IMG/VR virus record: IMGVR_UViG_3300033146_000850
Coordinates: 62,001-126,000 of that record
Length of the DNA: 64,000 bases
Origin: a virus
Strand: one strand, 5' to 3'
This document shows positions 721 through 58,952 of this stretch, piece by piece; the stretch's first letter is position 1; each line of letters begins with the position of its first letter. The notes under the pieces are model-generated. The model had not been told where the DNA came from, ran no database searches, and saw only the letters and a program-made list of their open reading frames with translations. The position numbers and the translations under genes were made by a program.

Positions 721-1581
721 ATGAAAAAACAACACATTAAAGAGACTTTACTTTCAGATTTGGAAAAGGCTATGGAAGAACCCAAAAAAAATATTCCAGC
801 TGATGATGTTGAAGAGCTTACAATTAAGCCTGGTTCAAATACTGATTATGATTTATATGTAAAAAAACTTATGGATGATGAATATTGCTTCAAAAAAGAT
901 AATATATCTAATTTGAAACAAGGTAATAGACGTGATGCAATTAAAGAGCTTGGAGATGATATATCTAATGAGCAATCACCTGGAAACCCCAATGTAAATC
1001 GAATGTATCGGTTTAGAAATAATGATAATACACCTACAAAAATCGATATTAAAAACAATATATTACAAGGTGATGAGATTAGCAATAATCCTGTTGAATT
1101 ACAAGCTGGCAAGTATCGTTTTAAAAATAATGATATGTCAGGTAATTGGAATGTTGGTGATGAGATTACTATTCCACAAAGATTATCATTTAAAAAAAAT
1201 ATACTTGGTAAATTAGTTTTTGAAATAGATGTTAATGATACAAAAGCATATATAACTAAAGATTTCTTAGAGAAAATAGAAAATATAACAGAAGACGAAG
1301 GTGGTGGAGGAGATGTTGGTGGTGGTGAATCAACTGATGGTGGAATAATGACCTCAACAAATAATATTTCAACATATGCAACACCTTTTACTAAAAATTC
1401 AGTTCAAAAAAGAAAAAATCCTAATATGTTTTTAACAGATGACGAAGAAGTTGTTGAAGAAGATGGTAGTGATTTTTCCTGGACTTGGAGCAAAGTTAAA
1501 AATCCACAGACAAAACATGAACAACCCGCTATTGATGATGATTTAATAAAAAAATTAAAAATTCATACACATAACAGTTAA
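721..1581 (+). CDS. hypothetical acidic protein with internal repeats
   Basis: 286 residues from the ATG at 721, chosen because AGGAG lies just upstream; an in-frame ATG at 694 has no such site. I do not recognise a family. Seen: an acidic, highly polar protein with three or four degenerate repeats of the type Y-R/C-F-K/R-N-N ... G-D-E-I-S/T (roughly residues 55-175), then a glycine-rich linker (GGGGDVGGGES) and an acidic C-terminal part. No signal peptide or membrane segment. It is followed at 75 bp by gp6, so a role in baseplate or virion assembly is possible by context only. Confidence 0.7.
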   Translation: MKKQHIKETLLSDLEKAMEEPKKNIPADDVEELTIKPGSNTDYDLYVKKLMDDEYCFKKDNISNLKQGNRRDAIKELGDDISNEQSPGNPNVNRMYRFRNNDNTPTKIDIKNNILQGDEISNNPVELQAGKYRFKNNDMSGNWNVGDEITIPQRLSFKKNILGKLVFEIDVNDTKAYITKDFLEKIENITEDEGGGGDVGGGESTDGGIMTSTNNISTYATPFTKNSVQKRKNPNMFLTDDEEVVEEDGSDFSWTWSKVKNPQTKHEQPAIDDDLIKKLKIHTHNS

Positions 1582-1615
1582 AACAATAGAAATCAAGTTA
1601 TATTAATATTTAAAT

Positions 1616-1626
1616 CATAAATATTA
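1616..1626 (+). promoter_or_regulatory. putative late promoter (CATAAATATTA)
   Basis: CATAAATA differs by one base from the T4 late consensus TATAAATA and lies about 30 bp upstream of the gp6 start, the same spacing as other copies in this window. A gp55-like sigma factor is encoded at 36227-36676. Inference from motif and position. Confidence 0.5.
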
Positions 1627-1655
1627 ATATAAATTGAACCTAAAGAGGGATTAAA

Positions 1656-4076
1656 ATGTCAAATATAAATTTAATTGCAACAAATTTTGAAGATATTAAA
1701 AAGACAATTATAAATAAATATAAAAATGACCCAGATAGTCCATTTTTAGACTATGATTTTCAAGGTAGTGCTTTAAATTATCTAATAGATATACTATCTT
1801 ATGCTACAATGTATAATAACTATTATAGTTCAGTTGCTATTAATGAATTATATTTACCATATGCTCAAAAAAATAAAAACATATACGCACTTGCAAACTC
1901 TTTGGGTTATTTACCTAGAAGACCATCAAGTTCAATCGCATATATTAGACCAGAATTACCAGAAATATATAATCCTGATTTAACTAAAGATATTGTTATA
2001 CCTGTTTATACTAAATTAAAATCTCAAAAAGGATTGAACTATATTTTAATGGAAGAAATACGATTCAGATATAATTTAGCAACAAATAAATGGTGTACTG
2101 TAAAAAATAACATTTTTGAACCTGATGATTCCCCATATTATTATAAAATTAAACAGGGTCAATTCCAACAAGTGACATTTTTACCAACACAGCAACCATT
2201 ACAACGGGTATTTATAGATAAATTAAACATTGATAATGCTCACGATTCAATATTAGTTCAAGATACCACAAATTATGAATATTGGACACCATTTTATGAT
2301 ATTTCAGATTTTAATCTTGATATATCTCACGATAATATATTTAATAATAATGTTACAGTAGAAGAACTCAAAAATGAAATAATTATCGATGATTTATGGG
2401 ATAATTTTATATTAAATTTAAATTCAGCAAAAACATTTTTTTTAAGTGGTGATGAAGCTGGAACATATATTAATTTTGGTGACGGCACGCTAGGTGCTAT
2501 ACCTGAAAACCAAATGGATATATTATATATATTGACAGAGGGTGAAAATGGTAACGGTGATACTATATTTGATTTTAGTGGTGTTGTAGATTACTCCAAA
2601 ACTGATGGTAGTGTTGGAACTATAAACCTTAAAAATGTAAATGCAATAATACAACATAATACATCATCAACAGGTGGAAGTAAAGCAGAAACAGCTGAAT
2701 CAGTAAGACGTTTAGCTCCATCTTTTAATAATACACAGAATAGAGAGGTTACCGAAACTGATTATGAGGCATTTTTAATGCAACAAAACTCGGTTCAATT
2801 GAATAATGTTAAGTGTATAGGTGGTGAAAAATTAAAACCTATAAAAATGGGAGCGATTGGAATTTGTGCAAGCAAAACTACCGCTAATAATGATATCAAG
2901 GCATCTTTATTAACAGATACAGAAAAAGAACTGCTACGTTTTATATTAAAAAATCAAAACATAGTCTCAATAAATCCAATATTTATACCACCCGAATTTG
3001 TCCGAATAAATATTGATACTACTATATATTATAATCCAATTCTATATGAAGATTATAGGGTATTTCAATCCGCTGATTCCGCAATTAAAACATATTTCTC
3101 AATGATTCAAGGGTTTAAAAAATACTTTAAATCTTCAAATTTAATATCTGTATTTGATAAGTTGCCAGAAATAGACCATAATTTAACAACTGCTGACCTT
3201 GAATATATTAAACTGATTAAAAAAGAAAATATTCAAGAGTATATGTATATTAATTTTGGTAATAATAACCCATTAATGAAAAATAGTATAACGAAAACAA
3301 AAACATCTGAATATTTCTTGAAAATATTCAATAATAATACATTCTACGATTGGACTGAATACGACAAAATCAATAACCAATCAGGAATATTCATCAAACC
3401 TGATGGTGTTAGCTCTTGGGACTTTTCTAAATTTCAACACTCCTCAATCACAAATAAAAGTAAAATACATAAGATATTTTTATATGATTTAGTAGAGGAA
3501 TATACTGATAATTCAAATGTTGGTAATCTATATCTTGTTGAAAAAATGCCTCACAAATTAAAAGCTGTCAGGATAAACAATAATAATGATTTTCCATACT
3601 TTTTTAAATATGAAGATGTTCAAGAAACAGGTAAACGCAAATTAATAGGTGAAGTACAATATAATACTGGGTTAATTAGATTATATTTAGATAATCTATC
3701 TTTTAGATATCTTAAAAATAATAAAAAAAGTAGAAGAATTGCAATTGAAACAGTTAAAAATGAAAAATTTGTTGTTACTAACACCGGAACTGAAAAAATC
3801 ATTACATATACAGATATAGATAATAAAAACGATGCATATAGTGATTATGATGATATATTTTTCAATGAATATCCTTTTGATAGTGTTAGTAATCTACCTT
3901 GGCACGAATCCCCAACACCAACAATTTTTGAACCAAATACCAGAACTGTTACTGATGAGTTCTTTTTAGAGTTCGGTTTTGATACTGTAAGGGAAGATTT
4001 TCAAAGTCAAGGTAATATGATTTTAACACTCGGTGATTGGGTTGTTAAAAAAATTAAAGAGGTTAATAAAAAATGA
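1656..4076 (+). CDS. gp6: baseplate wedge protein gp6 (baseplate J-like)
   Basis: 806 residues (T4 gp6 has 660). The N-terminus carries the family signature DYDFQGSALNYLIDILSY (residues 32-49), followed by the typical NELYLPYA segment and a LGYLPRRPSS stretch, as in T4 gp6 and cyanophage homologues. gp6 forms the inner ring of the baseplate wedge and holds neighbouring wedges together; it relates to P2 gpJ. AGAGGG is the ribosome binding site and the stop overlaps the next start (ATGA, 4 bp), so the two wedge genes are probably translationally coupled. The extra length is in the C-terminal half, where I see no named domain. Confidence 0.9.
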   Translation: MSNINLIATNFEDIKKTIINKYKNDPDSPFLDYDFQGSALNYLIDILSYATMYNNYYSSVAINELYLPYAQKNKNIYALANSLGYLPRRPSSSIAYIRPELPEIYNPDLTKDIVIPVYTKLKSQKGLNYILMEEIRFRYNLATNKWCTVKNNIFEPDDSPYYYKIKQGQFQQVTFLPTQQPLQRVFIDKLNIDNAHDSILVQDTTNYEYWTPFYDISDFNLDISHDNIFNNNVTVEELKNEIIIDDLWDNFILNLNSAKTFFLSGDEAGTYINFGDGTLGAIPENQMDILYILTEGENGNGDTIFDFSGVVDYSKTDGSVGTINLKNVNAIIQHNTSSTGGSKAETAESVRRLAPSFNNTQNREVTETDYEAFLMQQNSVQLNNVKCIGGEKLKPIKMGAIGICASKTTANNDIKASLLTDTEKELLRFILKNQNIVSINPIFIPPEFVRINIDTTIYYNPILYEDYRVFQSADSAIKTYFSMIQGFKKYFKSSNLISVFDKLPEIDHNLTTADLEYIKLIKKENIQEYMYINFGNNNPLMKNSITKTKTSEYFLKIFNNNTFYDWTEYDKINNQSGIFIKPDGVSSWDFSKFQHSSITNKSKIHKIFLYDLVEEYTDNSNVGNLYLVEKMPHKLKAVRINNNNDFPYFFKYEDVQETGKRKLIGEVQYNTGLIRLYLDNLSFRYLKNNKKSRRIAIETVKNEKFVVTNTGTEKIITYTDIDNKNDAYSDYDDIFFNEYPFDSVSNLPWHESPTPTIFEPNTRTVTDEFFLEFGFDTVREDFQSQGNMILTLGDWVVKKIKEVNKK

Positions 4077-29079: not shown

Positions 29080-31116
29080 ATGTACGAAGAATTAAAAAAG
29101 AAAATTTTGAAAATTAAAGGTAGATATTGGTATAAAGAATTAACTAATGATGAAATTAATATTATAATAAAAGAAACATCATTTTTACCTAATAAATATG
29201 ATATAAAAATAAGAAGAATATATTTTATACATAATTTAACAAGTTTACAAATATGCCCCACCTGTGGTAAAGAAATACAATGGGATAGAAAACATCAAAA
29301 ATTTGGAAAACGATGTAGTAAAGAATGTTATATCGTTCCTGATGGTGTAACTATTGACCAAATAAACAATGAAACCAACTTTTTACCATCAGATATATCC
29401 TTTAAAAATAGGGTAGGATATTATAGATTAAAAATTAAAAAATATAAAAAATGTTTAATATGTGATAAAGCGATTGATTTTGATAATAAACATTTAACAT
29501 TTCCCGATTACTGCTCATCTAAGTGTAGAAAACAAGGACAAAAATATATTAATGAAAAAAGGAAGGATTCTTGGTCTAATAAAAACAAAGAAGAGATATC
29601 TATAATCAACAATAAAAGAAAAAATACTGTAAATGAAAAATATGGAGTTGATAATGTGTTTCAAAATGAAGATATTAAGGTACGCTCTAATGAGAAACGA
29701 CAAAAAACTAATAATGAAAAATATGGGGTTAATTATTACATAATATCTGATGATTTTAAAGAAAAAAAGAAAAAAACATTACTTGAGACTGTTGGGGTAG
29801 ATAACCCTATGAAATTCGATGACTATAAAAATAATCAACAAGACTCATTATATGTGAATTATAATGTTAGAAATCCTATGAAATCTGAAACAATTAAACA
29901 GCGAGTAAAAGACACGAATAATGAAAAATATGGAGTTGATAATGTATTTCAAAATGATGATATTAAAGAAAAAATAAAGAAAACAGTGAATGAAAAATAT
30001 AATGTTGATTATTATTCACAAAGTAATGAATACAAAGAAAAAATAAAGAAAACACAACGTGAATCATACTGGGACTCTTTTATAACATTATTGAAACAAA
30101 AAAGAATCGAACCATTATTTGATAAACACGAATATATAACGTATAATTACGGTGAAAACAATAAAAAATATAAATGTTTAAAATGTGATAAATCATTTGA
30201 AACCGTTGAATTAAAAGTTCAAAAGATATATTGTAAAAAATGTGCAACAAGAATGTCACAATCAGAGCGAGAAATATCAGAATGGATAAAAGAAGAAAAT
30301 AAAAACATCAATATATTAACCAATAAATTTTTCAAAAATAGTGACAATAAACGTTATGAGCTTGACATATATTTACCAGATTTTAATATAGGGATAGAAT
30401 ATCACGGATTATATTGGCATAGTGAATTATATAAAGATAAAAACTATCATAAAAATAAATATGAATTTTTTAAAGAACAAGGAATTGAAGTTATTCAAAT
30501 ATTTGAAAATGAATGGGTTCTCAATCTAGAAATAGTCAAATCAATTATACGAACAAAAATAGGCGTGGTTAAACGAAAATTGTATGGTCGTCAATGTACT
30601 ATTCGTAGCATTGAAAACGATGAATATAAGCAATTTTGTGAGTTAAATCATTTACAAGGGTATGGAATAGCAAAAGTAAGACTGGGATTATATTATAATG
30701 ATGAATTAGTTCAAATAATGAGTTTTTCAACCCCTAGGTTCAATAAATCATATGATTGGGAAAACATCAGAACCTGTTCTAAAATCAACACAATAATAAC
30801 TGGTGGATTTTCCAAATTATTAAAACATTTCAAGAAAAACTATAAAGGTTCAATAATAAGTTATGTAGATGCTCGATATTTTAATGGTAAAGGTTATATT
30901 AACAATGGTTTTGAAAAAATAGGACATAGTAATCCAAACTTTTTTTATTTTAAAACACAATCTATAATATTAGAGAATAGAATGAAGTTTCAAAAACATA
31001 AATTAAAAGATATTCTAAATAACTACAATGAGAATGTAACATCTAATGTTAATATGTTGAATAATGATTATTTAAGAATATTTGATGCTGGGAATATAAT
31101 ATTAAAACATAAATAA
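29080..31116 (+). CDS. homing endonuclease-like protein (zinc-finger repeats, Vsr/PD-(D/E)xK-type nuclease)
   Basis: 678 residues. Order: an N-terminal helical part; a zinc-finger pair (CPTCGKEI ... RCSKEC and CLICDKAI ... YCSSKC, residues about 60-150); four or five repeats of the type NEKYGVDNVFQNxDIKEK (about 190-325); a third zinc ribbon (CLKCDKSF ... CKKC); then a nuclease core with YELDIYLPDFNIGIEYHGLYWH (D, E and H residues, about 427-448) and a C-terminal domain. This build is known in phage Hef-like/DUF7487 homing endonucleases. It brings its own promoter, stands directly behind the most conserved gene, and looks like a recent free-standing mobile gene. No intron boundaries are seen in gp23. 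Confidence 0.8.
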   Translation: MYEELKKKILKIKGRYWYKELTNDEINIIIKETSFLPNKYDIKIRRIYFIHNLTSLQICPTCGKEIQWDRKHQKFGKRCSKECYIVPDGVTIDQINNETNFLPSDISFKNRVGYYRLKIKKYKKCLICDKAIDFDNKHLTFPDYCSSKCRKQGQKYINEKRKDSWSNKNKEEISIINNKRKNTVNEKYGVDNVFQNEDIKVRSNEKRQKTNNEKYGVNYYIISDDFKEKKKKTLLETVGVDNPMKFDDYKNNQQDSLYVNYNVRNPMKSETIKQRVKDTNNEKYGVDNVFQNDDIKEKIKKTVNEKYNVDYYSQSNEYKEKIKKTQRESYWDSFITLLKQKRIEPLFDKHEYITYNYGENNKKYKCLKCDKSFETVELKVQKIYCKKCATRMSQSEREISEWIKEENKNINILTNKFFKNSDNKRYELDIYLPDFNIGIEYHGLYWHSELYKDKNYHKNKYEFFKEQGIEVIQIFENEWVLNLEIVKSIIRTKIGVVKRKLYGRQCTIRSIENDEYKQFCELNHLQGYGIAKVRLGLYYNDELVQIMSFSTPRFNKSYDWENIRTCSKINTIITGGFSKLLKHFKKNYKGSIISYVDARYFNGKGYINNGFEKIGHSNPNFFYFKTQSIILENRMKFQKHKLKDILNNYNENVTSNVNMLNNDYLRIFDAGNIILKHK

Positions 31117-34718: not shown

Positions 34719-35087
34719 TTATACCCCTAAATTTAAATTATTAGTTGATTCATTAACAGTTATTTTAATATCCATTTTGCCATCTTTCAAATCTTCTTTT
34801 TTATAAACACAAAGTATATTATTCATACCCAACAACATTAACTCTTCATTGTTAACATTGGCATTATGTCCTCTATGTGTTTGGAATACAACAATATCCC
34901 CTTTATTCAATCCTAAATTATTATATATCCCAGTCCTTTTATTTAAAACACCTTTTCCAACCCCTACAATCACACCTAAAGCTTTTTGATTAGGAATAGG
35001 TAATATTATACCACTATCCGTTTTTTCATCTGAATCAATCCTTTTAATCAATACCAAATCACCAATAGGTTTTAACTCAACACTCAT
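34719..35087 (-). CDS. GroES-like co-chaperonin (gp31 analogue)
   Basis: 122 residues; ribosome binding site GGAGG. GroES pattern: LKPIGDLVLIKRI (residues 5-17), TDSGIILP, GVIVGVGKG, LNKGDIVVFQ and a closing NNILCVYKKED. T4 gp31 replaces host GroES so that GroEL can fold the large capsid protein; this one may do the same for gp23. It carries a C-terminal extension of about 20 residues beyond the core. No GroEL homologue is in the window. Confidence 0.85.
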   Translation of the reverse strand: MSVELKPIGDLVLIKRIDSDEKTDSGIILPIPNQKALGVIVGVGKGVLNKRTGIYNNLGLNKGDIVVFQTHRGHNANVNNEELMLLGMNNILCVYKKEDLKDGKMDIKITVNESTNNLNLGV

Positions 35088-44093: not shown

Positions 44094-45965
44094 ATGTGTC
44101 TAAACAAGTCTACATTGAGATTATTTCACGCTATACAATCGTATAGCAAAGATTATGAAGGTGATTATCAATATAATCAATATATAACAAAGGGTTTATT
44201 TATAGACCCTAATATTGATGAATATGATGGTTTAATATCTGATATTGAGAATACTATTTTTCTTAATAGTGAAAAATTAAATAAAACTTTTTTTGAGTCT
44301 TGGAGTTATATTAAAAATACATCCAGTGAAGAATTAGCTATTCGTCAGATTATTCATTATATCACAGCGTATAGTTTTAAATCATTTGATGATTACAATG
44401 AGGATATAATATATATACCTAAAAAACAGTTGAATATACCATTGTTACGTGATAATTTAGAGTTAATATATATAAAAGCATTAACTAAAGATGAAATTAG
44501 AAAAAATGTTGTTATGTTGGCTTCTAGTGTATCTTTGAGTGATTCTGTTATTAATGATTTATACACTATAATAACTGAGAATAACTATGGAGTTGAAATC
44601 ATTGATGAAATAAGTAATCACGAATTGAGTTCTAGATTATGTGACTTTTATAATATTGTTCCATCTAATCCAACTGAATATTTGAGATTTTTAATATATA
44701 AAATTACTGGTGAAACATTATTAATAAAAAACAAACATCTATTTGATAGAATAGTTGAATCAAAGGTTAACGTGTCTGAATTATTAGACATATATGAGCC
44801 ACCTAGTGATTTATCATCAATATTTCGTAGGTATAAACCTTTATTTTTAGCTATGAGACAAATAGCTAGTGATAAAGGGTATTTTAATAGATTACGTAAG
44901 GATTCTGATAAAACCGCTACAACTATAACAACAAGTTATCTCAATAATGTTACTAATTTATTACATAAGGGTGAAATATCTATTTCAAAGCTTAAAGATA
45001 GTTTAGAAAAAAATAACATTTTTAAAAAGATAAAATTAGCTAATAGTTTAAGATATAGATTACATTCTTCGGATACATCTAACATATTACATATTATTAG
45101 AAATGGTAAGGGTTGGGTTAGAGAATTTGATTGGGATAATGTTGATAGAGAACAAACCATAGAAATTTTGAATACTGTTGTTAATTCCATAGTTGATGAT
45201 ATAAAATTAAAGGTTAAAAATAAGAATATATATATTCCCAGAAATGTCAAATATGCAATTCCATCATCTGAAAAACAATTTATTGGTAATTATCCATTAG
45301 GTACTAGAATTGGGTCAAATAGGAATACTATTTTTGGAATATATTGGGAAAATAATAGTAATGTTGTCGATTTAGATTTATCTTTAATTTCTAAAAGTGG
45401 TAAAGTTGGATGGGATGGAACAACGTCTGGTGATATTATGTTTTCAGGTGATATTGTTAATGCTGAGGATGGTGCAACAGAATCAATATACGTTAAGAAA
45501 TTTATAGATGAGCCTAAGTTAATATTTGTCAATGATTATACATCAGTTGCATCAAAAAATAATGTCGTTAACTCTAGAGTATTTTTAGGATTTGATTCTA
45601 ACATAAAGAATTTACCGCTTGGATATACTTTAAATCCTAATAATGTAATTGCAACTGCTAATATAGACATAACAACTAAAAGTAATGTTATAGGTATTAT
45701 TGAACCTAAAATTGGTAATAAAGGTATATATTATTATTTTTATAAAACATCTGTTAATAATAATATAACATCTGAATATGATGATTTATCATTTAAAGTT
45801 AGGGATAGTATTTTAAGACAATGTAAATCTATGATGTGGTTAAATGAATTATTAAAAAAATCAGGGGCAAATATACTTAGAGAAAGACCTGATGATGGGG
45901 TTGAATACGTGGATTTATCACCTATTAATTTAAAAAAAGATTCTATTTTAAAGTTGATTATTTGA
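44094..45965 (+). CDS. uncharacterised 623-aa protein with TerD-like C-terminal region
   Basis: Start ATG 44094 after GAGG, 23 bp behind tRNA-Leu. N-terminal two thirds helical and unknown. Around residues 415-475 the segments LGTRIGSNRNTIFGIYWEN, VDLDLSLISKSGKVGWDG, IMFSGDIVNAEDGATESIYV resemble the TerD-like calcium-binding fold used by bacterial MXAN_6230/SCO0854-type proteins (D-L-D-L-S, H/F-S-G-D-I, G-A-x-E). Such proteins belong to tellurite/stress systems in bacteria. In the phage it might bind metal or membrane partners; role unknown. The tRNA-like element begins directly at its stop codon. Confidence 0.6.
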   Translation: MCLNKSTLRLFHAIQSYSKDYEGDYQYNQYITKGLFIDPNIDEYDGLISDIENTIFLNSEKLNKTFFESWSYIKNTSSEELAIRQIIHYITAYSFKSFDDYNEDIIYIPKKQLNIPLLRDNLELIYIKALTKDEIRKNVVMLASSVSLSDSVINDLYTIITENNYGVEIIDEISNHELSSRLCDFYNIVPSNPTEYLRFLIYKITGETLLIKNKHLFDRIVESKVNVSELLDIYEPPSDLSSIFRRYKPLFLAMRQIASDKGYFNRLRKDSDKTATTITTSYLNNVTNLLHKGEISISKLKDSLEKNNIFKKIKLANSLRYRLHSSDTSNILHIIRNGKGWVREFDWDNVDREQTIEILNTVVNSIVDDIKLKVKNKNIYIPRNVKYAIPSSEKQFIGNYPLGTRIGSNRNTIFGIYWENNSNVVDLDLSLISKSGKVGWDGTTSGDIMFSGDIVNAEDGATESIYVKKFIDEPKLIFVNDYTSVASKNNVVNSRVFLGFDSNIKNLPLGYTLNPNNVIATANIDITTKSNVIGIIEPKIGNKGIYYYFYKTSVNNNITSEYDDLSFKVRDSILRQCKSMMWLNELLKKSGANILRERPDDGVEYVDLSPINLKKDSILKLII

Positions 45966-46034
45966 TGTGGTTTTATGGTGGAGTTTTTAACTTATTGTTG
46001 AAAACTGTGGGTTCGATTCCCACCACCACATCCA
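45966..46034 (+). tRNA. tRNA-like element lacking a D arm, possible anticodon UAU
   Basis: A 69-nt sequence right after the previous stop. TGTGGTT can pair with CACCACA (6 of 7), followed by T and CCA. The T arm GTGGG-TTCGATT-CCCAC is canonical. The anticodon stem TTTAA/TTGAA carries loop CTTATTG, so the anticodon would be TAT (Ile, AUA codons, common here). Only 13 nt lie between acceptor and anticodon stems, too few for a normal D arm. Its 5' end shares GTGG-T-TATGGTGGA with tRNA-Leu, suggesting descent by duplication and decay or a noncanonical tRNA. Confidence 0.5.
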
Positions 46035-48989: not shown

Positions 48990-49631
48990 GTGATTTGTAA
49001 ACTAAAAATATTAAATGGAAAACAAATTGGAGTTTCTTATATTGTTAATAAGAATCAAAAAAACACAATTGGGAATAATAAACGTTCAACGATATATATA
49101 GATGATATTTCTATATCTAAGAATGCTGGGGTTATTTATAGTACTGAAAATAAGGTTGAAATAATATTTAAAGGTAAAGAAGTTTTTAAGATTAATGATA
49201 TTAATTGTGATTCAAATAAGATGTATAATTTACAACATAACGATATTGTTACAATAGGTAGTGTTAATATTGGAATTTCTTTTATTGATTCCTCTGGTAA
49301 TTTTGTATTTAATAATAGTATAGATAAAATTAGGGATGAACGAAATAATATTGAGCGTAATGATATCATTTGGAAATCTTTGGTTATATCTCTTATCATT
49401 TTAAGTATGTCGTTTGTTATGTGGGTTATTATTGATATAAATAAAAATATTATTGAAACTATGACTTATGATGGAGGTATATTTAAATCATCAAATAATC
49501 AACGTTTAAAATGTATGAATTTTTTAGTAGATTCTTGTGATTTAATAATAAAAGACACAAAAGGTGTTAAATTTTATAAATGTAAATATGTAACTTATAA
49601 ATGTGAGGTAATTGAAAATGAAGGTAAATAG
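48990..49631 (+). CDS. FHA-like domain membrane protein
   Basis: 213 residues; GTG 48990 chosen because GGGG lies six bases upstream. The first 105 residues look like a forkhead-associated domain: KQIGVSYIVNKNQKNTIGNN, IYIDDISISKNAGVIY, LQHNDIVTIG, each in the usual place (the S-x-x-H motif reads SKNA, so the His is absent). Then one transmembrane helix (LVISLIILSMSFVMWVIIDI, about 125-144) and a Cys-containing outer part. FHA domains bind phosphothreonine; loss of the His makes phosphopeptide binding uncertain. Possibly a phage membrane adaptor. Confidence 0.65.
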   Translation: MICKLKILNGKQIGVSYIVNKNQKNTIGNNKRSTIYIDDISISKNAGVIYSTENKVEIIFKGKEVFKINDINCDSNKMYNLQHNDIVTIGSVNIGISFIDSSGNFVFNNSIDKIRDERNNIERNDIIWKSLVISLIILSMSFVMWVIIDINKNIIETMTYDGGIFKSSNNQRLKCMNFLVDSCDLIIKDTKGVKFYKCKYVTYKCEVIENEGK

Positions 49632-50616
49632 TGTTCACGTGTTTTATCATAATGCTGACCCAGATGGTCACGCTAGTGGTTTTTTACTAAAATGGGCTAT
49701 TGATGAAGGTATATTGAATATCAATAGGAAGAGAAAAGATATAATATTACATTCTTTTAATTATGGTTTTGATATTTCTTGGGAAAATATTAATAAAAAT
49801 GATGTTGTGTTTTGGGCTGATGTTTCAGGTACAAAGGAAGAGATGAAATTAATGCACAATAAAGTTAATGGTAATATGTATTGGATTGACCATCATGATT
49901 CTATATTATCTGAACATTCTGATTTACATGAGCATTGTATGGGGTTGAGGGATTTTAAAAAATCAGCTTGTCAAAACGTTTTACAATTTATAATGGATAA
50001 TGGTAGGATTGATTCCTATCAAGATAAAATATTGAAGAATATTAAGCCGTTTATAGATGTTATTGGTTATTATGATGCTTGGGATAAATCAGTTGTTCAA
50101 TATAATGAAGACTTATGGAATAAGGAATATGCATCTGTTAAATTTGCGTTTGATGCTATACAATCCAATCCAAATACAGATTTTGGGATTAGTTTTTGGG
50201 AAAATGTCATTGAATATGCTGAAAATGATGATATATCTGATTTAATATCTGATATGAGGTTAGATGGTAATTACCTGTTAAAATATATCAATAATAGAAA
50301 TATGCAATTATGTAAATCGTATGGTTTTTCTGCTGAATTTGAGGGATTGAACGTATTTGCTTTGAATCAAGGTATAGGTGGTAGTCACGTGTTTAATAGT
50401 ATAAATACTGCTAAATATGATGCTGTTATGTGTTTTATAAAATCAGGAAAAAACAATTTATATTCGGTATCATTATATAGCGATAAAGAAGATGTTAATT
50501 TGAATGCACAACTAAATCACATTGGGTTTAAGGGTCACGATAAAGCAGGTGGATTTAGATGTAAAGAGTTTAATATTTTAATGATTGATAACCATAAAAG
50601 AATAATAGTAAAATAA
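49618..50616 (+). CDS. DHH-family phosphoesterase
   Basis: 332 residues; ATG 49618 preferred (GAGG 10 bases upstream), TTG 49612 is an alternative. Motifs: HNADPDGHASGFLL (D14, D16, H18), FWADVSG, YWIDHHDSI (DHH), and in the C-terminal DHHA1-like part NQGIGGSHVFN and GHDKAGGFRCK. Members include RecJ, oligoribonuclease NrnA and cyclic-di-AMP phosphodiesterases. Without a RecJ OB-fold, small-substrate hydrolysis (nanoRNA, pAp or cyclic dinucleotides) is more likely; a cyclic-dinucleotide role could serve anti-defence (speculative). Confidence 0.85.
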   Translation: MKVNSVHVFYHNADPDGHASGFLLKWAIDEGILNINRKRKDIILHSFNYGFDISWENINKNDVVFWADVSGTKEEMKLMHNKVNGNMYWIDHHDSILSEHSDLHEHCMGLRDFKKSACQNVLQFIMDNGRIDSYQDKILKNIKPFIDVIGYYDAWDKSVVQYNEDLWNKEYASVKFAFDAIQSNPNTDFGISFWENVIEYAENDDISDLISDMRLDGNYLLKYINNRNMQLCKSYGFSAEFEGLNVFALNQGIGGSHVFNSINTAKYDAVMCFIKSGKNNLYSVSLYSDKEDVNLNAQLNHIGFKGHDKAGGFRCKEFNILMIDNHKRIIVK

Positions 50617-50679: not shown

Positions 50680-52152
50680 ATGAGTATATTTGATAAAAAT
50701 AATATGATGTCGATTATGGAAGGTTATTATAATGAGAATAATATCCCATTTCAACCAGCAGCATTGACCGAAATACCATCTAAACCAAGGACTAGAATTA
50801 CTATGCCTGAACGTGATAAAGAAGGTGATAGTGTTAATATGGTTGATGATATGGGTAAACAAGATGAGGCATTTGATATTGAAAGCACAGAACCCAAAGA
50901 GGCTGTTAGTGATGTTGTGTTAATACAATCAATATTAGATAAAATAGTTACTCTATATGATGGAAACGATATTAAAGTATTATATCGAGCACAAACTGAA
51001 AAAGGTGTTTTATATGATGTTTATTTTCAGAATAACCATACCATTTTATATGTTCAACCTGATAATGATAAGGTGTTTTTGATTAATAGAAGTATGGATG
51101 AAGACCATTTTGCTGATGTGTTAGAAGATATTCAAGAGATGGATGTTGATATCGCTGAAAGACATGTTGGTAAAGATTTAATTACAATTTCTAGAACTAG
51201 AATTGAGCCACCTATGCCTGAGCCAGCGTTATCTGATATAGATGATGTTGCTGATGATTTAGATGAATTAGATGTCGGTGAAATAGATGGTAAGGAGCCT
51301 GTAACAAATCCAGTGGATGATGATTTAGAAGATATTGATGCTGTAGATGATGAGGGTTCTGTAGATGATGAAATAGATGATGATGAATTATATTTAGATG
51401 ATGACCCCCAAAAGGATGAATCTGATGATGAATCTGATGATGAATATATCGAAAAAGATTTCGATGAGGCTTTAATACAAAATTATAAAATTATAAAGGA
51501 GGAGAGTATGTCTAAAACAGTAAAAGATATTATTAACGATTATGGTTATGAATTTATTTCAACTAAAAATGAAGTGTTGTCATTATCGGAATATTTACAC
51601 AATGAGGACTTGAAAAAGTTTGGTTCATTTTTTATAAGACTAAAAGATGATGATTATTACGACATTTATGGAATGGCTGGGACAAGGATAGATGAGAAAA
51701 ATAAACTAATATCTGTTATGGAATCCGGTAAAATGGTATTTGATAAAGATATAGTTTCAAATCTAAATGAGGAATATGTGGTTGGTGAAGTCGTTAAGAT
51801 TGATTTGAGAAATGTAGATGGTAAATATCTTAGAAATATCAATATTATAGCGAATAGAACACAAGGTAGAGCAATAGTTGAAAGTATAGGTGAAGATGTT
51901 ATATATGTAGCAGAGAATACTTCACAAGCTAAAATTAAAGGCGGTGTTCCAATTAATTTGGATGCTGTTATTAAAATTGAGAATATAGTTACTGCATCAA
52001 CAATATATGAAGATTCAGATATCAATATAGATTATGATGAAATGGTGAATGAAAAAAAACAGTATAATTTAAATATAAAAAAAGAAGAAGAGAAAAAATT
52101 ATCAAATATTATTCCTGAATCAATTATGGATTTGAGTTTTTTTAAAAAATAA
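50680..52152 (+). CDS. hypothetical acidic multi-part protein, possible internal start
   Basis: 490 residues. N-terminal part (1-160) mixed; 170-265 very acidic (DDELYLDDDPQKDESDD); C-terminal part (277-490) alpha/beta with a closing IPESIMDLSFFKK. A strong ribosome binding site AAAGGAGGAG is placed just before an in-frame ATG (51508), so a 214-residue C-terminal product MSKTVKDIIND... is likely made as well. No family recognised. Preceded by a CTAAATA late-type motif, so perhaps a virion or assembly protein. Confidence 0.65.
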   Translation: MSIFDKNNMMSIMEGYYNENNIPFQPAALTEIPSKPRTRITMPERDKEGDSVNMVDDMGKQDEAFDIESTEPKEAVSDVVLIQSILDKIVTLYDGNDIKVLYRAQTEKGVLYDVYFQNNHTILYVQPDNDKVFLINRSMDEDHFADVLEDIQEMDVDIAERHVGKDLITISRTRIEPPMPEPALSDIDDVADDLDELDVGEIDGKEPVTNPVDDDLEDIDAVDDEGSVDDEIDDDELYLDDDPQKDESDDESDDEYIEKDFDEALIQNYKIIKEESMSKTVKDIINDYGYEFISTKNEVLSLSEYLHNEDLKKFGSFFIRLKDDDYYDIYGMAGTRIDEKNKLISVMESGKMVFDKDIVSNLNEEYVVGEVVKIDLRNVDGKYLRNINIIANRTQGRAIVESIGEDVIYVAENTSQAKIKGGVPINLDAVIKIENIVTASTIYEDSDINIDYDEMVNEKKQYNLNIKKEEEKKLSNIIPESIMDLSFFKK

Positions 52153-52153
52153 T

Positions 52154-52182
52154 TTGACAATTTAATGTTTTTATGATAATAT
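52154..52182 (+). promoter_or_regulatory. sigma70-type promoter for the split CCA enzyme genes
   Basis: TTGACA (52154-52159), 17 bp spacer ending ATGA, TAATAT (52177-52182), 33 bp before the TTG start at 52216. Confidence 0.7.
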
Positions 52183-52215
52183 AAAATTGTTAATATTATC
52201 AATATGGGGATTTTA

Positions 52216-52863
52216 TTGTTCAGAGTAAATATTTCATCAAGGGAACGGTTATATTTTAATTTCGCAAAACTTATAATATCTAGAATAAATGATTATGAAA
52301 TATCTTTAGTTGGTGGAGCCAATCGAGAACTATTATTAAGATATTTTAATGGTTCAAGTAGTATCATTCACGATTTAGATTTTACAGTTTTTAAAAATGA
52401 TGGTTCAGGATTAACATCATCTGAATTTAAAGAATTTTCTAATAGATTTAAATATATGGATGATGTAATTCTTGTTGATGATGGGTTGAAGTTTTTACAT
52501 TTTTGTGTTATCGGTAAGAAAGGGACTAAATTTCATAATATAGAATTAGAATTTGGAACTCCTAGGAAAGAGGAATATTATGACACTAGAAAGCCAGATA
52601 TATCAGTTGGTAACGTTAGTGATGATATTCAAAGAAGGGATTTTACAGTAAATTCTATTTACACAATCATAAATAGATTAGAGGATGAATATGTGGTTTT
52701 GGAACAACATCCATTATTGGTTGATATTCAAAATGGTTTTATATCAGATGTTAAATATGGAGTATTAAGAACCACATCTAATAACCCAATGGTTATTTTC
52801 AATGAAGACCCTTTGAGGATTCTAAGGGCTATTAGGTTTGGTTCTTTTTATAAGGAGGTTTAA
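52216..52863 (+). CDS. cca: CCA-adding enzyme, catalytic (head) half of a split gene
   Basis: 215 residues from TTG 52216, six bases after GGGG; an ATG at 52204 overlaps that site. Class II poly(A) polymerase/CCA-enzyme head: VGGANRELLLRYF (about 32-44), HDLDFTVF with the catalytic D53 and D55, LEFGTPRKEEYYD, SDDIQRRDFTVNSIY and, at the very end, DPLRILRAIRF, the motif that normally leads straight into the rest of the enzyme. The ORF stops there. The C-terminal half is encoded at 53076. It adds or repairs CCA ends of tRNAs; both tRNA elements here encode CCA themselves, so repair is the likelier role. Confidence 0.85.
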   Translation: MFRVNISSRERLYFNFAKLIISRINDYEISLVGGANRELLLRYFNGSSSIIHDLDFTVFKNDGSGLTSSEFKEFSNRFKYMDDVILVDDGLKFLHFCVIGKKGTKFHNIELEFGTPRKEEYYDTRKPDISVGNVSDDIQRRDFTVNSIYTIINRLEDEYVVLEQHPLLVDIQNGFISDVKYGVLRTTSNNPMVIFNEDPLRILRAIRFGSFYKEV

Positions 52864-53058
52864 ATGTCATTTAGTGAAAATGAAAAATTCAAATTACTTG
52901 ATGAATATATAACAAGAAAGATAGAAGAATTACGTTTTATGAATTTATATGATATTACAAACGATGATGTTTATAATGCTATAATGGATGTTTATAATGA
53001 CATTTATATCGAAATGACTATGATTAATTATGATTCATCAGAGATGTCTAATGCTTAA
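52864..53058 (+). CDS. small ORF inserted in the CCA-enzyme gene, 64 aa
   Basis: Begins right after the stop of the head half; its ribosome binding site AAGGAGG forms the last codons (KEV) of that half. Acidic helical peptide (DEYITRKIEELRFMNLYDIT), no homology recognised. It separates the two halves of the enzyme and may stabilise the split complex or be the leftover of a mobile insertion. Confidence 0.6.
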   Translation: MSFSENEKFKLLDEYITRKIEELRFMNLYDITNDDVYNAIMDVYNDIYIEMTMINYDSSEMSNA

Positions 53059-53075
53059 TTTATAATGGGGATTAT

Positions 53076-53900
53076 ATGTTTAAACCTACTGATGAATTAA
53101 CATCTGTTGTTAATTCTTTTGATATTAAAATATTGTTTGATAAAGTTAGCATAGAGAGAATAAATGATGAACTTTGTAAAATTTTAATTAAAGGTGATAT
53201 TGATTATTTAATCCAATCTAATTTTATTGGTAAGATTATTCCAGAATATAAAGCATTTGAAGATAAACAATATAAAAGTATAGTTCTTAAACATATAACC
53301 GAAGTTGTGAGATTGGCTAGGAAATATGATGATATTAGTTTAATATTGGCTGGATTATTCCACGATATTGGCAAGGCATTCACAGGGGAATGGTCTACCG
53401 ATAAAAATCGTTACATATATTATGGTCACGAGGATATTTCTTCCATTGTTACATTGAAAAGATTAAAAGAATTAAGATTTTCAAAAAAAATAATTAAGGA
53501 TGTTGTTTTTATAGTGCAAAATCATATGAAAATTAAATTTTTCAATTCTAAAAACCCTAAAAGTTTTATTAAATTTTTATTAACTCATGGTTTAGATAAT
53601 GTTGAAAAATTAATATTGTTCAATAGTCTTGATTGGGGTGGTAAACCGTTAAAAGACCAAATATCGTTAGATGTTAATAATAAGCAAGAGCAGTTGGTTT
53701 CAATGTTTGATAAATATTCTAAAATTATTAAATATTGTAATAATAATTATAAAAAAGAATTAAGACAAATTGGAAAATTGATAAATAAGAATTCAAATAT
53801 AGATGTTTGGCAAAAATCAACAATGATTTTAGGTGAAAAGGTTCAATTCATAATAAATCGGGTTGATGAAGTTGAAAAACCCACAAATATTATTTTCTAA
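53076..53900 (+). CDS. CCA-adding enzyme, C-terminal half with HD domain
   Basis: 274 residues, own ribosome binding site GGGG. It begins FKPTDELTSVVNSFD and continues with KVSIERINDELCKIL (residues 23-37), the neck motif which in intact enzymes follows the RAIRF motif within about 25 residues. Then an HD domain: LKHITEVVRLA, LAGLFHDIGKAF (H96, D97), YGHED (H118), VFIVQNHM. Bacterial CCA enzymes with HD domains repair 2',3'-cyclic phosphate or 2'-phosphate ends. Expected to work together with the head half at 52216. Confidence 0.85.
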   Translation: MFKPTDELTSVVNSFDIKILFDKVSIERINDELCKILIKGDIDYLIQSNFIGKIIPEYKAFEDKQYKSIVLKHITEVVRLARKYDDISLILAGLFHDIGKAFTGEWSTDKNRYIYYGHEDISSIVTLKRLKELRFSKKIIKDVVFIVQNHMKIKFFNSKNPKSFIKFLLTHGLDNVEKLILFNSLDWGGKPLKDQISLDVNNKQEQLVSMFDKYSKIIKYCNNNYKKELRQIGKLINKNSNIDVWQKSTMILGEKVQFIINRVDEVEKPTNIIF

Positions 53901-53914
53901 TAATAAACTATAGT

Positions 53915-53929
53915 AAAAACTAAATAATT
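53915..53929 (+). promoter_or_regulatory. putative late promoter AAAAACTAAATAATT
   Basis: Same 15-mer as at 54933; 28 bp before the 53958 gene. Confidence 0.5.
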
Positions 53930-53957
53930 GTGTGATTAATTATTATGGTAAAATGAA

Positions 53958-54380
53958 ATGTTGAATTTTAAGAAATTCTTATTTGAATCATTTATATCTA
54001 AAGATGTTTTGAAAGAAACAATAAAAAAATTTAATAAACAAGTTAAATTGGACGCTACAGGTTATTATTTGAAAAATGGTAGTTTAGTATTCGCTCTTGC
54101 TATTTTTGAGCTAATAGGTAAAAATGGGGACATTTACGTGTTAGTAGATGATGAGGGTTCACATTTACATTATGTTGTTAAATTTGAGAATTATTATTGG
54201 GATATTAATGGTGGTTCTGGGTTGAAACGTAAAGAGGAGTTTATAACTATTGTAGGTGTTGGTGATTGGTTTTATGTTAATCCCAATGACTCTATTCTTG
54301 ATATTGATAATAAAAATGAAATATTGGAAGTATATTCACAGTTAAAGAATATATATATGAATTTATTAAATAGGGGGTGA
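53958..54380 (+). CDS. hypothetical protein, 140 aa
   Basis: Start ATG 53958. Contains NGSLVFALAIFELIGKNGDIYV and LHYVVKFENYYWDINGGSG, reminiscent of small phage/host proteins with a cysteine-protease-like layout (GNCxxFAxAL ... HxxV ... D), but the Cys position is replaced, so no activity is claimed. Precedes the spanin candidate by 2 bp. Confidence 0.55.
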   Translation: MLNFKKFLFESFISKDVLKETIKKFNKQVKLDATGYYLKNGSLVFALAIFELIGKNGDIYVLVDDEGSHLHYVVKFENYYWDINGGSGLKRKEEFITIVGVGDWFYVNPNDSILDIDNKNEILEVYSQLKNIYMNLLNRG

Positions 54381-54974: not shown

Positions 54975-57900
54975 ATGAGTGTTAGAACTTCACCAGGTGT
55001 TTATATTACTGAGATAGATAAATCTCTAGGTATGGAGCTTTTGGGTACAGGTGGTATTGGTATAGCAGTTAAGCTTAACAAAGGACCAATAGGTAAACCT
55101 TTCGTTGTCACTTCGGAAAAAGACTTAATGAGTAAAGGTGGTTTACCTATGCCAGGGTTTAATTTGCGAGGTTGGCATTCTGTTGATAATATTTTAATTT
55201 ATGCTGGAAGTGTTGCATTAGCTAGAGTTGAAAAGGTTTCTTTTAGTTCCACTCATAATAATGTTACTCAAAAATTTGAAATTCCTGTAAATACTGCACA
55301 ATTAGGTGTTTGCTTAACAGGGGATACCGTCAATTTTGATTTTAATGAAGAATTACAAATGATGATTAAGAATCGAGAGATTTTTAAAACTACAAATTCT
55401 CAAAATGTTTATGATATTATGAATGAAGATACTGGAATCGATATTGAAAATGTTGATAATTCAATTTTAATTGATAATGATGATAGTTTAGAAACGTATG
55501 CTGAGGATTTATCATTCAATACAAAGGCTAAGTCATTATATAAACTTGCAAATTTAGGAATGACAACAGCTGTAAAAGATGATTTCATTCCAAATATAGA
55601 AAATGGTCAAGTATATAATCACAATGGTAAAATTGTTGATATTGGTAATGATATATATTCTGACCATTACATATTGACCCTCCAAAAAGGTGTTGATACA
55701 ATGGGTTCAGGGACTTTAAGTAGGGATGATGTTGAATTGACACAGTTAAATGGTATTAATACATCATTTACTTCACAGGTTAGAACTGGTTCAGATATGA
55801 ATATATATTGGTTCAGTGGTAACATTTTAGGTTCAGGTAATTTAATTAGGGATAGTTTTAATTATAAACAATTAAATTCCACTAATGATATGACTGGTTT
55901 TATCCAACAAGGGGATAAAGTTGTGATTGATAATATTGAGCGTGAGGTGTCTAGTGTAACACCTGTAGCAATAATGATAACAACTGATGCACCTTCTGAT
56001 TGGAGTGTTTCACAAACAACTTGGCATTATAATAAACAAATATCTGAAAATATAGTAGTTGATAAAGTATTATCAGATACAGAATTGAAAATAACATCTA
56101 TTATTAATAGTACGTTTGATTCTGTATATTATTATGATGGTAGCTATGTTTCTCATACATCGGATGCATCTAGTGAAACAGGTTCCCCATTTCAAATCTT
56201 ATCTACTAGTTCATTCTCAAATGGTGAATATTTATATATTGGTTCAGCTGATTCTTTTAATTCGATTTATTTTGATTTATCAGTTTTGGGTGATAGCACA
56301 ACATCTCCAACTCTTATTGTTGAATATTCAACAGGTGCTAATTCTTGGAGTAATGCGATTGGGATGTTAGATGAAACTAATTCATTTTCTAATAGTGGAT
56401 ATATTTATTTATCATTGGATGAGTCATTATGGGTAGACGATTCTGTTAACGGTGATAATATTAAGTGGATTAGAATTAGCACTGATGCTAACTTTGACAT
56501 CACCGCTCCTGTTGCTAATTATATGGTTCCATCTGTTATACCTACAAACTCAATATGTAATTTCAACTTTTCATATGATGAAGAATCTGGTGTAACAACA
56601 ATAGTTGAAAAAATATATGGTGATTCAGATGACCCAAGTGGAAAAACTATAAAAGGGTTAAATTGTAATTTTTATACTCTTCTTAGAGAAGGTTCAAAGA
56701 TTGTTGTTGATATAAATGGTGTTATTCATACTAGATATGTTGAGAATATTGTTTCTAGAGATACATTGACATTTACAGAGGGTTTAGTTGAATTAATAGT
56801 TGAACCTGCTGATGCAAAGGTATTCACTTATTCTAATTTTTATTTTGATTGGAATGATGCAGTTGTTGGTAAAACAATATATACTGAACACGCAAAGGCA
56901 GATATTGTATATACATATCAGTTCAATAATACACCTGCTGGTTATTTGAGTTATGTTGTTAAATTAGTTAGTGGTAATCTTAATAGAGATGATAAGATTT
57001 CATTGTCTAAATTGAATAGTGATGAATGGAGTATTTATACTAATACTGTAAAAACTATAAAAAACCTTAATAAAGAGGATAATGTATATTTTATATCTTT
57101 AGATGGGTCAATATCATCTCCAGCTACAAATATGTATTTTACAGATGATTCCGAAAGGGGTAATAGTAGAATTAATAATTATAGAGGTGTTGGTCAAGTA
57201 TTATTCTCATCAACAGATACATCTAAATATCTGATGATTGTTGAGTTAATTTCAGATGTTGTTACTGGTGATGAATCACTATTTAAAAAGGGTTGGTTTG
57301 CAACTGATGATTTATCTAGTGGAGATGGTAATTGGGGTACAGATGCAACAACCGAGATTGTTGATTTCATTCACAATTATGAGGATGTTATATTATATGA
57401 ACACGATGAGCATACTGGTGATATGGTTATGGTTAATGAACAAATCGTGGGGTTATCATCTGCAATAAAAGATAGATATACTTATAGTTATTTATTGTTA
57501 AATGATGGTTCAGATAAAGTTGATTATATTGATGTTGATAGTGTGTTGGGTAATAATATAATCGCAACTGAATTTATAAGAGTATGTTCTATCACTCCTG
57601 GGGCTTGGATAAATGATGAAAATGTATCTATTGCTATGTGTGATATGTCTCATTATAATACAGCATTAGTTGAATCTAATGGTATTGGATTTAAAAGCTT
57701 ATTTGAATTTGCACCTGACACCTCTGATAATTCATTAATTGCATTTGTTGTTATTAAGGATGATTTAGTTGTTGAAAAATACATAGTGTCAACTAACCCA
57801 TCTGCTAAAGATGCTCAAGGAACTTCATTATATATCCTAGATGTTATCAATAGAAAATCTGGATATGTTAGGGTTTTATTGAATACTAGCGTTCTTTTAC

Positions 57901-58952
57901 CTAATGAACCTAATGGATATGATATACATTTCAACACCGTTCAGAATGTAAAGTTAACTGGTGGATATTCTAGTAAATCTATTGAATTATATAGTAATTA
58001 TTATTATGATGATAATTCTACTGTTAATCTTTCTATTATTAATGGTTATGTTGAGGATAGCGATGTTATTAATGCATATGAATTATTTAGAAATAAAGAA
58101 GATGTAACACTTGGATATCTTGTTGATGGTGAGTGGGCTGGTAATGCTACAATTGCTGGTAGAATGAGAGATATATGTGTTTATAGGGGTGATAGTGTTG
58201 CTATTATCAGTCCTAGTATTAGTGATATTGTTGGTATCAGAGATTCAGATATAATTGAGCAAAATATTCTTAATTATGTTAATGATAAAAGTCTTGTTGG
58301 TGGGGATAGAGCTAATCAATTTATGGCAATATATGCTAATTGTAAACAAGTTCAAGATGTATTCAATGATACATATGTTTGGATTCCAATTTCTTCGGAT
58401 GTTGTTGGTATCAATAATAGTATTGATGGATACTATGACCCTTGGGTAGCTGCTGCTGGTGCTGAGAATGCTAGTATTAGAAATATTATAAAACTTGGTT
58501 GGAATCCTACAGAGGAACAACGAGGTCGTATATATCCTAATAGAATCAATCCAGTTGTTTATTTTAAAGGTGAGGGTACTTATGTATATGGTGTTAGAAG
58601 TCTATGCTCTTTAAAATCAGACCTTTCCGATTTATATAATAGAAAGACTTTAAATCATATTGAGAAGAACCTTCAAAAATTTATGAGACAGGTTCTTTTC
58701 AAATTCAATGATGGTATGACTAGAGGTCAGGTTGTTAATAATATTGAACCATTCCTTAGAAATATAAAATCTAAAAGAGGATTGATAGATTATAAGATTG
58801 TATGTGATTCAAGTAATAATCCAATGTCTGTAATTGAGGATAATACTCTAGTATGTGATGTCTATTTGAAAATGGCTCATGTTATTGAAAAAGTAGAGTT
58901 ACAATTCATTATAACTAAAGCTTCTGTTTCATTCGAGGAAGCAACATTATAA
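54975..58952 (+). CDS. gp18: tail sheath protein gp18, unusually large
   Basis: 1325 residues, twice T4 gp18 (659). Strong ribosome binding site AGGAGG. The N-terminus has the sheath opening VRTSPGVYITEIDKS, GIGIAVKLNKGPIG and a SVDNILIYAGSVALARV segment. The C-terminal 330 residues carry the sheath core: WVAAAGAENASIRNI, NPTEEQRGRIYPNRINPVVY, SLKSDLSDLYNRKTLNHIEK, QVLFKFNDGMTRGQV, DVYLKMAHVIEKVELQF. About 700 residues of beta-rich sequence are inserted in between, with repeated SG-x-L-x-RD segments (for example GSGTLSRDDV, GSGNLIRDSF, SGNLNRDDKI). The insertions probably form outward-facing domains on the contractile sheath. Confidence 0.92.
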   Translation: MSVRTSPGVYITEIDKSLGMELLGTGGIGIAVKLNKGPIGKPFVVTSEKDLMSKGGLPMPGFNLRGWHSVDNILIYAGSVALARVEKVSFSSTHNNVTQKFEIPVNTAQLGVCLTGDTVNFDFNEELQMMIKNREIFKTTNSQNVYDIMNEDTGIDIENVDNSILIDNDDSLETYAEDLSFNTKAKSLYKLANLGMTTAVKDDFIPNIENGQVYNHNGKIVDIGNDIYSDHYILTLQKGVDTMGSGTLSRDDVELTQLNGINTSFTSQVRTGSDMNIYWFSGNILGSGNLIRDSFNYKQLNSTNDMTGFIQQGDKVVIDNIEREVSSVTPVAIMITTDAPSDWSVSQTTWHYNKQISENIVVDKVLSDTELKITSIINSTFDSVYYYDGSYVSHTSDASSETGSPFQILSTSSFSNGEYLYIGSADSFNSIYFDLSVLGDSTTSPTLIVEYSTGANSWSNAIGMLDETNSFSNSGYIYLSLDESLWVDDSVNGDNIKWIRISTDANFDITAPVANYMVPSVIPTNSICNFNFSYDEESGVTTIVEKIYGDSDDPSGKTIKGLNCNFYTLLREGSKIVVDINGVIHTRYVENIVSRDTLTFTEGLVELIVEPADAKVFTYSNFYFDWNDAVVGKTIYTEHAKADIVYTYQFNNTPAGYLSYVVKLVSGNLNRDDKISLSKLNSDEWSIYTNTVKTIKNLNKEDNVYFISLDGSISSPATNMYFTDDSERGNSRINNYRGVGQVLFSSTDTSKYLMIVELISDVVTGDESLFKKGWFATDDLSSGDGNWGTDATTEIVDFIHNYEDVILYEHDEHTGDMVMVNEQIVGLSSAIKDRYTYSYLLLNDGSDKVDYIDVDSVLGNNIIATEFIRVCSITPGAWINDENVSIAMCDMSHYNTALVESNGIGFKSLFEFAPDTSDNSLIAFVVIKDDLVVEKYIVSTNPSAKDAQGTSLYILDVINRKSGYVRVLLNTSVLLPNEPNGYDIHFNTVQNVKLTGGYSSKSIELYSNYYYDDNSTVNLSIINGYVEDSDVINAYELFRNKEDVTLGYLVDGEWAGNATIAGRMRDICVYRGDSVAIISPSISDIVGIRDSDIIEQNILNYVNDKSLVGGDRANQFMAIYANCKQVQDVFNDTYVWIPISSDVVGINNSIDGYYDPWVAAAGAENASIRNIIKLGWNPTEEQRGRIYPNRINPVVYFKGEGTYVYGVRSLCSLKSDLSDLYNRKTLNHIEKNLQKFMRQVLFKFNDGMTRGQVVNNIEPFLRNIKSKRGLIDYKIVCDSSNNPMSVIEDNTLVCDVYLKMAHVIEKVELQFIITKASVSFEEATL

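Follow-up and report, generated by a model that had tools for sequence, protein, structure and literature searches.

The stretch of viral DNA analyzed here (64,000 nt with a G+C content of 27%, referred to as the window) belongs to a virus record of 126,063 bases that encodes a portal protein, a major head protein and a tail sheath protein. Between a 490-aa ORF and a 140-aa ORF, the window contains three consecutive ORFs that had originally been predicted to represent a CCA-adding enzyme divided into two genes around a 64-residue ORF, and all three are present (Table 1). The first ORF resembles the head of a class II tRNA nucleotidyltransferase and the third its neck, body and HD parts; thus, an enzyme that usually forms a single chain from head to body is spread over two ORFs. 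Because these two ORFs lie in different reading frames and have the 64-aa ORF between them, we file the locus as a split variant of the class II tRNA nucleotidyltransferase rather than the single-chain form.

Table 1. Features of the split tRNA nucleotidyltransferase locus, with positions counted in the window
Feature	Position	Strand	Basis
Putative ribosome site of the head gene (GGGG)	52206..52209	+	read in sequence
Predicted head subunit, class II tRNA nucleotidyltransferase, motifs A, B, C-like and D	52216..52863	+	profile matches
21-nt imperfect direct repeat, copy 1, in which the 64-aa ORF has its ribosome site and ATG	52847..52867	+	
Putative ribosome site of the 64-aa ORF (AAGGAGGT), within the final head codons	52852..52859	+	read in sequence
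64-aa ORF, family unassigned, two predicted helices	52864..53058	+	coding score, predicted fold
21-nt imperfect direct repeat, copy 2, in which the tail gene has its ribosome site and ATG	53059..53079	+	
Putative ribosome site of the tail gene (GGGG)	53067..53070	+	read in sequence
Predicted tail subunit: neck (motif E), body and HD domain, 274 aa	53076..53900	+	profile matches

Several other genes of the same phage were recorded. A GroES-like gene lies on the minus strand of the window (34719-35087; Cpn10, 2e-16) and a GroEL-like gene elsewhere in the virus record (L121:7652-9274; Cpn60, 4.5e-69), a DHH phosphoesterase-like ORF is located two genes upstream of the split enzyme (49612-50616; phrog_4771, 3.8e-16), and the best sheath-family match of the 1325-aa tail sheath ORF (54975-58952) is confined to positions 984-1324, which leaves a large part of that ORF unexplained.

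The head ORF comprises 219 codons when read from an ATG at 52204, which has no purine-rich stretch or ribosome site upstream, and 215 codons when read from the TTG at 52216; the latter is likely the better fitting start, given the GGGG stretch ahead of it. The ribosome site of the 64-aa ORF, AAGGAGGT, was expected within the last codons of the head gene and is indeed found there, 4 nt ahead of the ATG. The 64-aa ORF is in the same frame as the head and follows the TAA stop codon of the head gene in direct stop-start contact (TAAATG). The tail ORF begins with an ATG, and each of the two enzyme parts is preceded by its own putative ribosome site, as predicted. The description of the junction needs correction in three respects: the head does not end right at DPLRILRAIRF but continues for seven more residues (GSFYKEV); the tail ORF opens 22 residues ahead of KVSIERI rather than just before the neck motif; and RAIRF and KVSIERI, assumed to be adjacent in intact enzymes, are in fact ~25 residues apart there, a segment that the tail ORF supplies. 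A single frameshift error is excluded as the origin of the split because the halves lie 212 nt apart and the intervening sequence bears no relation to the enzyme. Scans for promoters (41 sites compared to 41.1 expected) and terminators (0 compared to 0.7 expected) were uninformative.

Comparisons with family profiles agree with the expectation that no core residues are missing, as the two halves align end to end with each of three full-length models. The first is phrog_2244, the tRNA nucleotidyltransferase family (2.7e-19 for the head), of whose 392 positions the head covers 3-149 and the tail 159-379, in succession and with no gap. In the second, the NCBIfam model TIGR02692 (466 positions), head residues 29-214 correspond to model positions 26-181 (2.4e-15) and tail residues 21-157 to positions 202-349 (1.7e-15), the first 20 tail residues exactly filling positions 182-201. 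Both halves, as well as the intact protein of the nearest relative described below, score far below the curated cut-off of TIGR02692, and for that reason the match shows position and kinship rather than exact activity. The third model is a 48-row profile, built from 48 homologues that were collected from viral contigs and aligned, to which the head aligns at positions 31-196 (1.8e-38) and the tail at 218-422 (2.2e-29), again with no gap; when the head and tail are joined in one frame, they score 214.9 bits as a single domain, compared to 119.9 and 90.0 bits apart. Among Pfam families, the head matches PF01743, the poly(A) polymerase/CCA head family (9.9e-9), and the tail matches the HD family PF01966 (1.2e-7) and, below the threshold, PolyA_pol_RNAbd (0.013). 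A fragment alignment with mafft, which stretched the head to residue 231 of the relative by its last residues, was set aside in favor of the profile coordinates.

The original prediction called for a search for intact versions in related phages, and the nearest relative found (L014, on a 134 kb viral contig) is one, a single chain of 474 residues. The window's head is 38% identical to this protein up to residue 207, and the tail is 34% identical to it from residue 209. The record of this relative contains no match to the window's tail sheath. In its predicted structure (pLDDT 82.0, pTM 0.81), whose best matches among solved structures are CCA-adding and related tRNA-processing enzymes (e.g., the 1miv, 4x4w, 3wfo family), the break point of the window's gene falls in the loop 206-212 between the helices 196-205, which carries motif D, and 213-221. 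The gene is broken in what is predicted to be a loop between two neck helices, and the conserved core is left intact.

Twenty-four alignment columns are invariant in the 48 homologues, and the window keeps 23 of these (19/20 in the head and 4/4 in the tail). The only mismatch is D44 (numbering of L014), the D that follows R in GGxxR(D), which is D in 48/48 homologues and E in the window; phage G has N at this position in an alignment of seven sequences. The window matches 10 of the 16 columns conserved at 90-99%, some of the mismatches being located where the alignment is uncertain; this outcome speaks against an enzyme that is ordinary in every respect. With regard to individual motifs, the head retains G, G, R, D and D of motif A (the metal-binding DxD together with GGxxR), motif B (RRDFT.N) and, near its end, the templating EDxxR of motif D in the form EDPLRILRAIRF. 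In motif C, the G171 and D174 columns match, and the D158 column (D in 47/48) faces V beside a local insertion; a DIQNG stretch could supply the motif C Asp. The tail contains motif E (S.ER..E..K; S25, E27, R28, E32 and K35) with its 4/4 invariant columns, and in the HD part H73, H96, D97 and D186 belong to a set of 18 columns that do not vary across 15 tails, including that of the window. Loss of catalytic residues, which had been named as evidence against a functional enzyme, was therefore not observed for DxD, RRD or EDxxR, the single altered invariant being the D to E change in the GGxxRD motif.

The 64-aa ORF has a codon score of 0.265 bits per codon, compared to 0.214 (sd 0.121) for windows of real genes and -0.311 (sd 0.132) for off-frame windows. 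Because its score exceeds that of every off-frame window, the frame is not a chance open frame, and it codes like the real genes of the phage. Its product is predicted from the single sequence to form two helices with moderate confidence (pLDDT 69.9). The best similarities are 0.083 in Pfam (Post_transc_reg) and 0.055 in PHROGs (47 C-terminal positions of an HNH family), both too weak for us to accept either identity; NCBIfam yielded none, and none of the three collections supports a homing endonuclease. Its 2.2-bit match to the CCA profile was likewise rejected. No relative of the 64-aa ORF was found in single-sequence scans of viral contigs or genome contigs, comparison with phage records gave three matches only at E 8-9, and phmmer searches returned only the ORF itself below E 0.7 among 18,824 ORFs of the examined loci and a next value of 0.097 when compared with the 1,423 ORFs of the same genome. 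A search of 52100-54000 against Rfam with E up to 1 detected no intron and only one sub-threshold microRNA match. As judged from these similarity searches, the insert appears to be neither a recognizable endonuclease nor a known intron.

The insert is 212 nt long when measured between the starts of the two 21-nt repeat copies, which are identical at 17 of 21 positions. When other ribosome-site segments of the window are paired, 4 of the 1,378 pairs reach an identity this high, and the likeness of the copies may partly reflect two similar ribosome sites. The copies share the codon register, and dropping one 212-nt unit produces an open head-tail frame of 494 codons in which 43 residues separate motif D from motif E. 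The corresponding distance is 37 residues in 41/48 homologues and 46 in one of them (L078), a natural lengthening by nine residues; two distances of 85 among the 48 look like false pattern matches.

Viral contigs were scanned with alignments of the head (80 loci taken of 487 relatives among 599 matching stretches) and of the tail (80 loci taken of 331 relatives among 599 matching stretches). After addition of smaller sets, 184 loci were classified (L014-L201 minus four stretches of the window's own genome), some of which represent the same contig repeated, e.g., L014, L094, L115 and L123. The head, neck and body are found in one ORF in 136/184 loci and, accompanied by a separate HD-like ORF, in 2 more; 17/184 have only the head and neck, 20/184 only the body/HD part, 6/184 have no match at the threshold, and 3/184 are irregular (L090, L091 and L152). 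A break at the window's position that leaves the head on one ORF and the neck/body on another occurs in 0/184 classified loci, so that no second genome with this split was found among them. Searches of viral contigs with the single sequences of the head, tail and tail sheath found no relative, nor did a scan of genome contigs with an alignment of two tails, and when 52204-54380 was compared with phage records at the DNA level, only short pieces matched, each covering at most 3% of the query. A Foldseek search of viral predicted structures returned a pair from Myoviridae ctYA416 annotated as poly A polymerase and HD phosphohydrolase (E 0.027 and 0.11). Of the irregular loci, L090 contains a short phage tRNA nucleotidyltransferase with an in-frame TAG in its head (L090:3097-3099) and the frame open on both sides, representing recoding or a nonsense change. 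At L091:2328-6522 there are tandem tRNA nucleotidyltransferase-like ORFs, of which the first is head-only (230 aa, without a neck) and the second (1185 aa) includes the head, neck and body.

The explanation that we favor, at a probability of roughly 0.6, is that a small gene inserted into a phage class II tRNA nucleotidyltransferase gene gave rise to a two-subunit CCA-type enzyme. The insertion, by whatever mechanism, would have interrupted the gene where it encodes the loop that follows the motif D helix and precedes the next helix of the neck, and the interrupting unit would be a small gene with its own ribosome-binding site. The head chain would carry the nucleotidyltransferase sheet with DxD, RRD and the templating EDPLR, the neck, body and HD domain would form a separate chain, and the genes would be translated separately in the order head, 64-aa ORF and tail. 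The two chains would presumably associate through the head-neck contact and, with the templating motif on one chain and motif E on the other, the pocket may be complete only when they meet; the assembled enzyme could then add or repair the CCA ends of tRNAs during infection. We prefer this reading because the frame is open in each half, the residues for catalysis and templating and those of the neck and HD parts are kept, and the break is located in a predicted loop. The original claim of a functional two-subunit enzyme rather than decay is well founded with regard to the split, the completeness of the core and the translation signals of each part but goes too far in dismissing recent inactivation, given that the split was seen in no other genome. 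Because it occurs in none of the other 184 loci, evolutionary proof that the split form is maintained is lacking.

Recent inactivation means that the insertion destroyed the gene and that the halves represent a young pseudogene before decay, an alternative that we consider unlikely though clearly worth attention. It is consistent with a split common to no relative, whose age is not datable without close relatives, and with the alteration of one invariant residue (D to E), but both halves are open with normal codon usage, and the tail gene starts at an ATG preceded by a separate ribosome site. Moreover, if the repeat represents a duplicated target, its 19% divergence translates to ~0.1 substitutions per site per copy. 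Simulated neutral drift to ~0.1 per site introduces on average 7.4 to 10.0 stops into the two ORFs and leaves them free of stops at a frequency of at most 0.0003, although the simulation rests on the homology of the repeats, which is itself inferred; for a split five times younger (0.02 per site) the stop-free frequency is 0.12 to 0.20. The simulation argues against old decay and not against recent inactivation.

It is less probable still that the halves are independent proteins, a head-only nucleotidyltransferase and a stand-alone HD phosphohydrolase. Phage HD-only ORFs do resemble the tail (the body/HD match stands alone in 20/184 loci), a stand-alone CCA-type head domain has been solved (2la3), and a head-only ORF lies beside a fuller enzyme at L091. 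However, the tail keeps the neck motif E, which has no evident use without a head, and the 18 body-less short phage enzymes (17 loci and L090) keep the neck on the head chain, whereas the window's head is without it. A comparably improbable elaboration of the two-subunit reading is a three-part enzyme, where the helical 64-aa product would join as a third subunit by binding to the neck loop at the break, and where the insert might be removable via the 21-nt repeats, such that the phage would carry either a split or a fused enzyme.

The translational bypassing gap of T4 gene 60 is roughly 50 nt long. A single full-length protein could conceivably be made from the window's locus by bypassing of the 212 nt, by RNA splicing, or by excision of the insert between the repeats, and the 494-codon frame that results from loss of one repeat unit as well as the TAT codon present in register at both ends of the insert would fit such a process. 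We regard it as very improbable, since the Rfam search found no intron, the gap is ~4x longer than that of T4 and no more structured than shuffled sequences (z 0.57), and the insert is a gene with a strong ribosome site. An assembly or strain-mixture artefact that placed a foreign 212-nt stretch in the gene is just as remote, for although the locus rests on a single metagenomic contig, the insert has the codon usage of the phage, it is packed tightly between the head and the tail with the TAAATG contact, and its flanks match the enzyme without loss.

The tRNA-Leu gene of the phage already encodes CCA, so that the phage's own tRNAs give no obvious reason for having the enzyme, which counts against the favored two-subunit reading. 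A tRNA-Ile(TAT) detected by ARAGORN (window 45961-46034) has two mismatches in the acceptor stem, and a perfect seven-pair stem can be seen by eye out of register; it may be a degenerate or unusual tRNA. Since the tRNA-Leu ends in CCA and the acceptor stem of the second tRNA is poor, repair of trimmed tRNAs seems more likely than maturation of the phage's own. CCA-adding enzymes are known in jumbo phages, and a role in restoring the ends of tRNAs when phage and host are in conflict has been ascribed to them (PMC7824862, in excerpt).

The third irregular locus of the survey, L152 (IMGVR_UViG_3300033146_003955, 1070-3765), contains a second interrupted phage CCA gene. Like the window, it has the gene in two ORFs around an insert, here of 111 aa and 379 aa with successive matches to PF01743 (positions 3-77 and 72-125). 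Unlike in the window, the break is inside the head between motifs A and B, and the gene is interrupted by a homing-endonuclease ORF that runs on the opposite strand (346 aa; phrog_3339, 5.5e-17; phrog_12131, 1.1e-12; DUF7487). Rfam detected no intron at L152. A small ribbon-helix-helix-like ORF was observed beside the endonuclease ORF, and the second half of the gene starts with a cysteine-rich stretch. Homing endonucleases are known to split phage genes. The window itself includes a 678-aa homing endonuclease-like ORF (29080-31116; phrog_3339, 5.6e-116) directly after the major head protein gene, and because of this phrog_3339 member, the window's phage, too, carries elements that can break phage genes and refill them. 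As a conjecture, an element of this type acting from elsewhere might have helped bring in the 64-aa ORF.

The head and body are connected by the neck, which also bears the amino acids that serve as the template, first for C and then for A. An enzyme cut naturally between motifs D and E would allow a direct test of whether CC addition, A addition or only the cohesion of the parts depends on a covalent neck. It would also add a non-endonuclease case of a small phage gene settled inside an enzyme gene without destroying its parts.

Phage genes in pieces are a kind already described, and no report of a split phage tRNA nucleotidyltransferase gene was found in the literature searched (PMC8464048, in excerpt, concerns glycyl-tRNA synthetase only). 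As far as our searches of this literature and of the 184 loci go, what is new is the enzyme affected, the break point separating motif D from motif E, and the nature of the insert, which appears to be neither a recognizable endonuclease nor a known intron. The split NrdA of Aeromonas phage Aeh1, which arose by mobE insertion, is active, and the split DNA polymerase 43A/43B of phage 25 co-purifies and is active (PMC2988022, in excerpt). As in these two and in the T4 topoisomerase gene 60, an insert divides a phage gene of the window into two coding regions; the inserts in those systems are homing endonucleases or untranslated spacers, whereas the window's is a 64-aa orphan. The nicotinamide phosphoribosyltransferase gene of phage CB7 is interrupted by an insert that is not spliced (PMC7344957, in excerpt). 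Among tRNA nucleotidyltransferases, the class II CCA-adding enzymes (1miv, human 4x4w, 3wfo family) have the same head-neck-body order and the same DxD, RRD, EDxxR and motif E as the window but are single chains, whereas the window's chain is broken between motifs D and E. The excerpts of PMC3925840 place the nucleotide of class II enzymes between the head and neck, with its base read by Asp and Arg of the neck, and those of PMC8563995 assign the EDxxR residues to motif D. The short phage tRNA nucleotidyltransferases of the Cellulophaga phage phi4:1 type (phrog_24229, ~220-290 aa) are, as in the window, small phage enzymes containing the head, but they have the neck on the head chain and are without the body or HD part. 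Finally, pairs of CC-adding and A-adding enzymes (PMC3925840, in excerpt) resemble the window in that CCA addition is spread over two gene products; however, each member of such a pair is a complete head-to-tail enzyme, while the products of the window would be parts of one.
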